Source of the DNA: Dehalogenimonas sp. THU2
GTDB taxonomy: Bacteria > Chloroflexota > Dehalococcoidia > Dehalococcoidales > Dehalococcoidaceae
Length of the DNA stretch: 64,000 nt
Assembly: GCF_039749495.1 (NCBI RefSeq)
Contig: NZ_JBDLLU010000004.1
Location: 62,001 to 126,000, forward strand
Direction of reading: 5' to 3'
Under the pieces are notes generated by a model. It did no database searches and was not told the origin of the DNA. It saw only the letters and a list, made by a program, of their open reading frames with translations. Positions 36,617 to 57,413 of the stretch are shown here, piece after piece. Position numbers and translations under genes: made by a program. Each line of letters starts with the position of its first letter. Positions within the stretch are counted from its first letter, which is position 1.

Positions 36617-37372
36617 GTGATCACCGCCGGGCTGGATGTCGGCTCGCGCACCATCAAGCTGGTGCTCTTCGAGAACGAGGTGTCTCATCGTGCCGTCATC
36701 GACAGCGGTCTGAAACCGGTGGAGCGCTGCCGCAGGCTGCTGGACGGGAGATCGTTCGATAAACTGGTAGTGACCGGCTACGGCCGTGACCTGGTGGCGC
36801 CGGAGCTTTCCGGCGCCACCATCTCCGAGATCTCCGCCCAGGCCGCCGCCGTTCGGTATCTTTATCCCGACGCCGGCAGCGTCATCGATATCGGCGGGCA
36901 GGACTCCAAGGTCATCCGGCTGAACGACAAGGGTGGCGTACTGAAGTTCGAGATGAACGACCGCTGCGCCGCCGGCACCGGCAAGTTCCTGGAGATCATG
37001 GCACGGGCACTGGAGCTGAACATCGATGAGTTCGCCAAAACCGCCCTTGAAGCTGAACGCTCGGTGACTCTGAACTCGCTTTGCACTGTCTTCGCCGAGA
37101 GCGAGGTCGTTTCCCTTATCAACAAGGGCGAGGACGCCCACGCTATCGCCCTGGGCTTGCATCAGTCCGTGGCCAGCCGCCTGACCTCCATGGCTAAACG
37201 GGTGGGGGTGGCGGAAAGGCTGGTCTTTGCCGGCGGCGGCGCCATGAACCCGTGCCTGGTAAAATTACTTGAATCAAGGCTCGGTCTCAAGATGACCGTG
37301 CCGGAAGACCCTCAAATCACCGCGGCGCTGGGCGCCGCCATCATTGCTGCTAACGGTAAACATAAGGAGTAG
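36617..37372 (+). CDS. BadF/BadG/BcrA/BcrD-type ATPase, activator of the dehydratase-like protein
   Basis: 251 residues with an actin-like ATPase fold: GLDVGSRTIKLVLF (phosphate 1), DIGGQDSKVIRL (phosphate 2), and the [4Fe-4S] cysteines in MNDRCAAGTGKFLE and TLNSLCTVFAESEV that a homodimer would share. It hydrolyses ATP to push electrons to very low potential into its partner. GTG start after GTAAG. Placement behind the dehydratase-like gene fits the DCCP/DCCR pair. Confidence 0.93.
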   Translation: MITAGLDVGSRTIKLVLFENEVSHRAVIDSGLKPVERCRRLLDGRSFDKLVVTGYGRDLVAPELSGATISEISAQAAAVRYLYPDAGSVIDIGGQDSKVIRLNDKGGVLKFEMNDRCAAGTGKFLEIMARALELNIDEFAKTALEAERSVTLNSLCTVFAESEVVSLINKGEDAHAIALGLHQSVASRLTSMAKRVGVAERLVFAGGGAMNPCLVKLLESRLGLKMTVPEDPQITAALGAAIIAANGKHKE

Positions 37373-37376
37373 AGAT

Positions 37377-37958
37377 ATGCCTGAGATCATCGACGCCCGC
37401 GCCAAACCCTGCCCGCAACCGGTGCTGTTAGCCGGCAGTGCCATCAAGACGTCGGACGAGGTCGTCATCATCGTCGATAACGTGGTGGCCCGGCAGAACG
37501 TAGCCAAATTCGCTAAAAGCCAGGGTTGCGGTGTCACCGTCGAAGAAAAGGATGACGGTATCTACCTGCACCTGAAACGGGAGGCGGCAGCCTGCCAGCC
37601 GATGGCCGAACCGTCGCAGGGCGGGATCGTCGTCTTTATCGGTTCCGACATCGTCGGCAGGGGCGAGAATATTGAACTGGGCAAACTGCTGATGCAGAGC
37701 TTCCTGAATACGCTTCAGTCCCTGCCTAACCGGGCGGAGAGCATCATCTTTATGAACAATGGCGTCAAACTGGTGGTTGAGGACTCGCATGTCCTGGGTG
37801 AGCTCAAGCAACTGGCCGAGGCCGGGGTGGAACTTCTGGCCTGCGGCACATGCCTTTCACGCCTGGGGTTGTCGGACAGGGTGGGGGTGGGGCAGGTGTC
37901 CAACATGTTTACGATTGCCGATACGATGACGCGGGCGGGGAAGGTCATAAGTCTCTAG
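37377..37958 (+). CDS. yedF: YedF, sulfurtransferase-like selenium metabolism protein
   Basis: 193 residues from the ATG at 37377 (AAGGAGTAGAGAT). The N-terminal TusA/SirA domain has DARAKPCPQPVLLAG with the CPxP cysteine; a C-terminal DsrE-like domain (~85-193) has VVFIGSDIVGRGENIELGKLLMQSF and LLACGTCLSRLGL. YedF is found mostly in selenium-using anaerobes and is annotated as a selenium metabolism protein, though its reaction is not established. It is 4 bp after the activator gene and so co-translated. Confidence 0.9.
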   Translation: MPEIIDARAKPCPQPVLLAGSAIKTSDEVVIIVDNVVARQNVAKFAKSQGCGVTVEEKDDGIYLHLKREAAACQPMAEPSQGGIVVFIGSDIVGRGENIELGKLLMQSFLNTLQSLPNRAESIIFMNNGVKLVVEDSHVLGELKQLAEAGVELLACGTCLSRLGLSDRVGVGQVSNMFTIADTMTRAGKVISL

Positions 37959-48212: not shown

Positions 48213-48425
48213 TTAAACGGCCGTAACCGCCCTTCTCTTATGCTTATACCCCAGTCCGATAAAATAAAACCCGCCTATCATCGAGACTACGTGAAAGATC
48301 ACGGCCGGTATCTGTGACAGGAAAGAGGGCGCGTCATCCGCGGCGACCGCCGCGACGATGCTGACGGCTCAGACTATGCCGATACCGAGTAAAGTGTATC
48401 CCAGGCCTTTGTAAAATGCGCTCAT
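48213..48425 (-). CDS. Small membrane protein B, in-frame TGA at codon 19 (candidate selenoprotein or pseudogene)
   Basis: ATG at 48425 follows a strong site (GGGAGGAATGAA). The frame runs 70 codons to TAA at 48213, interrupted once by TGA (48371-48369) after GTC. If read through, the product is MSAFYKGLGYTLLGIGIV-X-AVSIVAAVA..., two membrane helices (~9-29 and ~40-58) and a basic tail (KHKRRAVTAV). A hairpin GCGGC-GGTC-GCCGC begins 15 nt after the TGA, with its loop at nucleotide 21, the position expected of a bacterial SECIS. Trp also fits this position, so TGG-to-TGA loss is the rival view. No frameshifts are present. Confidence 0.6.
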
Positions 48426-48437
48426 TTCATTCCTCCC

Positions 48438-48623
48438 TTATGCCTGTACCGCGTTCACGAACATCCACAGCGCCAGCAGAGCGGAGGTGCCGTGGATGGC
48501 ATAACCGGTCATCGAGTTTTTGCTCCAGGGTTTTTCTTTCTTGCGGAACACGCCCGCCATCACTGCAATTATTCAGACAAGCTGCAGGATGAAGAAGAAT
48601 GCGGCGCCTATCCACCATCCCAT
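48438..48623 (-). CDS. Small membrane protein A, in-frame TGA at codon 17 (candidate selenoprotein or pseudogene)
   Basis: ATG at 48623 follows AGGAGGCGACAAT. The frame is 61 codons to TAA at 48438, with one TGA (48575-48573), also preceded by GTC, at the inner end of the first helix: MGWWIGAAFFFILQLV-X-IIAVMAGVF, a basic loop (RKKEKPWSK) and a second helix (~43-58). A hairpin GCGG-GCGTGTT-CCGC starts 15 nt after the TGA, its loop at nucleotide 20. The gene ends 12 bp before the ATG of the second gene, so they form an operon. Both match the same design with the same interruption. Confidence 0.6.
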
Positions 48624-48701
48624 ATTGTCGCCTCCTGATCTTAATCTTGAGGGTGACCCTCGTTACGGAGATGATAACCTATTGGTCACCTGGCTGCATC
48701 A

Positions 48702-57026: not shown

Positions 57027-57413
57027 ATGAATTTACTGCTCTTGATCGCCGCGGCCGGGGCGTTGGGGTCGCTGGGACGTTACGCGCTATCCGGCGCCGT
57101 TTACGCTGCATTGGGCAGCGGCTTTGCCTACGGTACACTGGTGGTTAACGTTCTTGGCAGTTTCCTCATCGGCCTTATTATGCAAGTCGGCCTTTCGACA
57201 GACCTGGTACCACCGCATATGCGCACTGCCGTGACCATTGGGTTCCTGGGAGCTTTCACCACCTTTTCCACCTTTAGCTATGAGACAGTGAGGATGTTAC
57301 AGGAAGGGGCGTGGGGGACGGCAGCTTTGAATATTATTGTGAGCGTGATGGTCTGTATCGCCGCCGTGTTCGCCGGCATTTTTGCCGGGAGACTCATCGC
57401 AGGAGGAGCGTAA
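57027..57413 (+). CDS. crcB: Fluoride ion channel/transporter CrcB
   Basis: 128 residues, four helices: LLLIAAAGALGSLGRYALSG, TLVVNVLGSFLIGLIM, GFLGAFTTFSTFSYET and a fourth. The conserved GALGSLGR and TFSTFSYE (Phe box) are intact. Fluc-type channels export fluoride as dual-topology dimers. No fluoride riboswitch is seen in the 30-bp leader. Its TAA overlaps the ATG of the DUF190 gene. Confidence 0.96.
   Translation: MNLLLLIAAAGALGSLGRYALSGAVYAALGSGFAYGTLVVNVLGSFLIGLIMQVGLSTDLVPPHMRTAVTIGFLGAFTTFSTFSYETVRMLQEGAWGTAALNIIVSVMVCIAAVFAGIFAGRLIAGGA

Follow-up and report, generated by a model that had tools for sequence, protein, structure and literature searches.

Two very small neighboring genes in a 64,000-nucleotide stretch of the Dehalogenimonas sp. 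THU2 genome (hereafter the window) are each interrupted by a single in-frame TGA, which raises the question of whether these codons are read as selenocysteine (Sec), are read through as another amino acid, or mark two decayed genes. A first-pass annotation had described both as clean frames with good ribosome-binding sites, TAA stops and one TGA apiece, and these descriptions, with their coordinates, were confirmed. Gene A (48438..48623, minus strand) runs from an ATG at 48623 to a TAA at 48438, is preceded by the ribosome-binding site AGGAGG (48631..48636, minus strand) and carries its TGA at codon 17 (48573..48575, minus strand). Gene B (48213..48425, minus strand) follows with a gap of 12 nt between the stop of A and its own start; it runs from an ATG at 48425 to a TAA at 48213, has the ribosome-binding site GGGAGG (48432..48437, minus strand) just past the stop of A, and carries its TGA at codon 19 (48369..48371, minus strand). 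Both ribosome-binding sites can be read directly from the DNA, and comparable ones precede the homologous A and B genes of other genomes. With the TGA codons read as selenocysteine (U), the products would be two-helix membrane selenoproteins of 61 residues for A (MGWWIGAAFFFILQLV-U-IIAVMAGVFRKKEKPWSKNSMTGYAIHGTSALLALWMFVNAVQA) and 70 residues for B (MSAFYKGLGYTLLGIGIV-U-AVSIVAAVAADDAPSFLSQIPAVIFHVVSMIGGFYFIGLGYKHKRRAVTAV). The same annotation had remarked that GTC precedes both TGA codons; this holds in the window but not across the homologs, where GCT, GTT, GCC, GGC or ATA is found. Given that TGA is the normal stop of 5 of the 11 ordinary clear genes in the window, there is no global reassignment of TGA in this genome, with the codon read as Trp throughout.

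Protein searches recovered tandem A and B genes, 18 in all, in nine species belonging to five families of one phylum. Besides the genome of the window itself, the carriers are four members of the same genus (G001, G004, G005 and G007), a MAG from another family of the same order (G139, locus L042), a genome from another order of the same class (G344, locus L049) and two genomes from outside the class (G656, locus L065; G572, locus L066), with the assemblies of G139, G344, G656 and G572 being incomplete or multi-contig. In these nine species A and B are never found apart, and the order is always A then B. Every one of the 18 genes has one in-frame TGA at the same aligned column (nine of nine for A, nine of nine for B), is otherwise uninterrupted and ends in a normal stop; in the alignments this column is still invariant where identity to the window proteins drops as low as 41% (A) and 21% (B). 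A single shared TGA in 18 of 18 homologous genes goes well past what chance could produce. The true stop of gene A is itself a TGA in the distant species (L042 5001-5183, L049 1492-1674, L065 and L066), such that both meanings of UGA would coexist in one small gene, the internal one being recoded. A further oddity is that gene B of G572 (L066 1236-1448, minus strand) has no ATG, GTG or TTG start near its ribosome-binding site; unless there is an assembly error, its start is likely to be ATC.

This distribution bears directly on decay, in which a Trp (or Cys) codon of each gene would have turned into TGA by mutation, leaving A and B as pseudogenes. A conversion of TGG to TGA would need just one transition, and these small genes occur sporadically, being missing from three members of the genus (G002, G003 and G006). 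Yet the same TGA recurs in all 18 genes of the nine species, where TGG (Trp), for which the homologs were to be checked, is never seen, and no further stop or frameshift has accumulated. Moreover, purifying selection continues past the TGA: dN/dS, computed by the Nei-Gojobori method and pooled over 10 pairs from five species of the genus, has similar values upstream and downstream of the TGA, namely 0.08 and 0.13 in gene A, and 0.23 and 0.29 in gene B. Since codons past the TGA would be free of constraint if translation ended there, these low values indicate translation of the full A and B frames. At the sequence level, there is thus strong support both for translation of the complete frames and for purifying selection on them. 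The two independent Trp-to-stop losses that the first-pass annotation had kept as its alternative are refuted by the conservation across families and by the dN/dS past the TGA, and we regard decay as having next to no probability.

Forms with Cys at the Sec site were likewise sought and none was recovered; the profile searches covered genomes sampled from the order, the class and the phylum, and a further scan covered 84,980 species genomes. In the scan of species genomes the single-protein query gave 0 matches and the alignment query one. Several candidates were rejected as weak matches, those that were translated being unlike the A/B family: G035, G061, G496, G342, G480 and G202 for gene B, and G142, G448, G607, G504, G571, G790 and G693 for gene A. 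The viral contigs and plasmids searched contained no homologs of A or B.

Translation through the TGA might also come about without selenocysteine, through a near-cognate tRNA-Trp or tRNA-Cys that inserts Trp or Cys, perhaps as regulated low-level readthrough, and leaky readthrough of UGA does occur in bacteria. A site that is always TGA, and never TGG or TGC, argues against such a reading, and so does the distribution of tRNA-Sec. The host genome (1.84 Mb in 35 contigs) possesses the Sec machinery, the presence of which the first-pass annotation had left to be checked: a tRNA-Sec gene scoring 70 bits, which ARAGORN types as tRNA-SeC with anticodon TCA; a selB match exceeding the curated cut-off; and a selD gene, whose early codons include an in-frame TGA (L030 1501-2427, G000:C10:12866-13792). 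Host SelD is itself a selenoprotein, and the distance from the UGA to its SECIS loop, GGGU, is shorter by about 2 nt than in A and B. A tRNA-Sec with TCA is also found in G001, G003, G139 and G344, and the tRNA-Sec match reaches about 70 bits or more in every carrier genome examined, with G656 and G572 lying outside that set. By contrast, the sister genus, in which both A and B are missing, has tRNA-Sec scores at background only (about 48-50 bits). In G002, G003 and G006, of the same genus as the host, tRNA-Sec is present and the A-B pair absent; the absence of the pair despite tRNA-Sec points to its loss or gain within the genus. The passages on the Sec genes of Dehalogenimonas in two papers (PMC4918011, PMC13390414) report a selCDAB operon, a Sec-containing formate dehydrogenase and a Sec-containing SelD, and do not mention the A and B genes.

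The RNA downstream of the two UGA codons provides a further line of evidence. In gene A a hairpin, GCGGG-CGUGU-UCCGC (48543..48557, minus strand), has a stem that begins 18 nt past the U of the UGA, and in gene B a hairpin, UCGCGGC-GGUC-GCCGCGG (48338..48355, minus strand), has one that begins 16 nt past it. The hairpins had been recognized in the first-pass annotation as starting 15 nt downstream with a loop at about nucleotide 20; while they are real, the stems begin at 16-18 nt and the loop lies at about nucleotides 24-28. A perfect stem of at least 5 bp is centered 24.5-25 nt past the U in 17 of the 18 genes, the exception being gene A of G007, which has a 4-bp GCGG/CCGC stem in nearly the same place; the stem-center distances form a sharp peak at 24.5-25 nt, with no comparable peak at other centers. 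The loop G-U at nucleotides 24-25 (0-based) is invariant in all 18. Among the twelve genes sharing one register, 98% of cells pair and four of the five pairs show changes on both sides; the covariation score of 0.58 compares with 0.19 for shuffles, none of 500 of which scored as high, and with at most 0.27 when the partners are slid.

Within the genus the B stem is UCGCGGC/GCCGCGR with the loop GGUC, and in the B genes of the four distant homologs the stem sequence differs while the geometry and the GUC loop are the same: for instance, the stem is UGUCC/GGACA in L042 and UGGGAGGG/UUCUCCCG in L049, with GUC kept in both. When the A genes of the nine species were compared, the hairpin codons GCG-GGC-GTG-TTC-CGC showed zero synonymous change among species keeping those residues; other conserved A residues use several codons in most cases. 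Each of the 18 hairpins exceeds in stability the average of 1000 recodings with synonymous codons (mean z about -1.4), even though the stability of each gene's hairpin is only modestly unusual, with fractions of 0.02-0.32 relative to the recodings. Judged by their position, loop and covariation, the hairpins of A and B are bacterial SECIS elements. A conserved hairpin at a fixed distance with an invariant GU loop fits SelB-dependent decoding, leaving insertion of Trp or Cys by a near-cognate tRNA a very improbable reading. The selenocysteine reading of the first-pass annotation is thus supported by the machinery, the TGA in 18 of 18 genes and the covarying hairpins, and we consider it highly probable, from the sequences, that the UGA of A and B is recoded to Sec and that the two proteins represent a new family. 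The UGA at codon 17 in A and at codon 19 in B would be decoded by tRNA-Sec and SelB, as directed by the SECIS hairpin 16-18 nt downstream.

We compared the A and B profiles with hhalign, which aligned them with 95% probability (E = 2.2e-8), pairing Sec with Sec and the helix-2 His with His; the match is weaker with fewer sequences. By this profile comparison A and B are paralogs. The first-pass annotation had treated the two sites as independent and found their coincident decay surprising; given the paralogy they are not independent, and the apparent coincidence of the TGA site reflects common descent and selection. The pair is best explained as a unit of two genes whose products are paralogous membrane selenoproteins, matching none of the selenoprotein families checked. 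The only residues invariant in all 18 sequences are Sec17, Val25 and His44 (A numbering), with the His being located in helix 2. As the Val codon holds the loop GU of the SECIS element, constraint on the RNA can account for the conservation of this residue, which leaves Sec and His at the protein level and marks them as the likely functional pair.

Structure prediction yielded a helical hairpin for both proteins (mean pLDDT 70 for A and 77 for B). In each protein Sec is predicted to sit about halfway along helix 1, and His to lie closer to the cytoplasm in A and closer to the outside in B. A positively charged loop is seen for A in nine of nine species; the loop of B has a charge of zero or below in nine of nine, and the termini of B are positive in nearly all. 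By the positive-inside rule these charges imply an N-out/C-out orientation for A and N-in/C-in for B, i.e. the two proteins are predicted to insert in opposite orientations, A with its positive loop and B with its positive termini. A and B would then most likely form an antiparallel heterodimer of four helices, in which His-Sec-Sec-His would be aligned along a path across the membrane. A buried Sec/His site of this kind could act as an electron relay via a selenol/diselenide couple, or could allow the passage of a soft metal ion across the membrane. We offer this proposal, that the two Sec and two invariant His form a buried site serving as a redox relay or soft-metal conduit, as a tentative one that the residue positions suggest and that we would not yet call probable.

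Many two-helix small proteins are accessory subunits, and A and B could be genuine selenoproteins acting singly, for instance as an accessory subunit or regulator of a respiratory complex, with the two genes being merely co-transcribed duplicates. The A-B complex is a prediction and no conserved neighbor accompanies the genes, both of which leave room for such a role. However, the pair is unsplit in nine species with a constant order of A then B, the predicted opposite topology is kept in nine of nine, and both Sec and both His are invariant. We therefore view single action as possible but, on balance, unlikely. The fuller picture of a Sec-only family of opposite-topology paralogs, with an intramembrane Sec/Sec/His/His center (a diselenide or a selenolate-metal site) for the transfer of electrons or a soft metal across the membrane, and with no Cys version known, is less likely than not as a complete account.

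Examination of the gene-neighborhoods did not yield a conserved neighbor that might point to a pathway: across the genus coaBC and other genes are located downstream, and the neighbors in the genus are not common to the distant genomes. As these neighbors are unshared, the context gives no function. A YedF-type protein had been noted about 10 kb from the pair, and is indeed located at 37344-37958; it has an N-terminal TusA-like CPQP motif and an adjacent activase-like gene, and is not visibly linked to the pair. Elsewhere in the window, 57027-57413 codes for a small four-helix protein, which we take to resemble fluoride channels of the CrcB/FluC family, where dual-topology dimers are well known.

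Redox activity, a known fold and Cys homologs are common to many of the selenoproteins inventoried so far, and current detection methods lean on such homologs. The authors of deep-Sep state that families without Cys homologs may be filtered out (PMC12013277), which, as the searches recovered no Cys form, may explain why the A/B family was missed. Frames of this type are easily dismissed as pseudogenes or never called. The pair suggests that there are Sec families without a Cys form, here two very small membrane proteins both with Sec, and points to a class of overlooked selenoproteins. It also raises the question of what role a buried mid-membrane selenol paired with His might play in these anaerobes, including the organohalide-respiring genus Dehalogenimonas.

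Scans of A and B against Pfam and NCBIfam matched no curated family, a PDB sequence search returned no matching chain, and a fold search with B gave generic helical matches alone, none at E <= 0.001. The A-B pair is also absent from a May 2026 inventory of 119 prokaryotic selenoprotein families (PMC13188914). The first-pass annotation had held that Sec within a membrane helix of a protein of about 60 residues would be a new class; Sec in membrane proteins as such does have some precedent, as the same inventory includes three with Sec forms: a mercuric transport protein of the MerT type, YeeE/YedE and a transporter for Cu/Zn efflux (PMC13188914). These three are nearest in kind to A and B, and all are distinct from them. 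The Sec-containing SelD and formate dehydrogenase alpha of the host genus share with A and B the single in-frame UGA, a SECIS hairpin after it that has G/U in its loop, and the same SelB and tRNA-Sec; unlike A and B, they are large soluble or complex-bound enzymes, and are unrelated to them in sequence.

Selenols bind Hg, Ag and Cu tightly, and A and B might accordingly be MerT/MerF-like soft-metal carriers in which the helix-1 cysteines have been replaced by Sec. The MerT-type selenoprotein (PF02411) listed in the inventory is likewise a small membrane protein with Sec, which it carries in a C/SxxU motif (PMC13188914). However, that type comprises one protein, whereas A and B are two paralogous partners without the motif and without a sequence match to it. 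None of the 18 members matched the Pfam MerT or MerF profiles, the A and B sequences have no Cys pair in helix 1 but a single Sec with no neighboring Cys, and no mer genes were seen adjoining the pair. We consider a MerT/MerF-like carrier unlikely. YeeE/YedE and SO_0444-type proteins are multi-helix transporters, which resemble A and B in being polytopic membrane proteins with Sec forms and have no sequence match to them. Paired SMR transporters are encoded by tandem paralogs of opposite topology that form an antiparallel dimer, each SMR protein being a four-helix protein of about 110 residues that lacks Sec. The SMR_qac_pB8 profile gave a weak match in 4 of the 18 members (best E = 1.5e-4), with the B protein of the window scoring 17 of 200 bits, far under the curated cut-off. 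This score, together with the two-helix models of A and B versus the four helices of SMR proteins, places the pair outside the SMR family, with which it nevertheless shares its tandem paralogy and, by prediction, its opposite topology.
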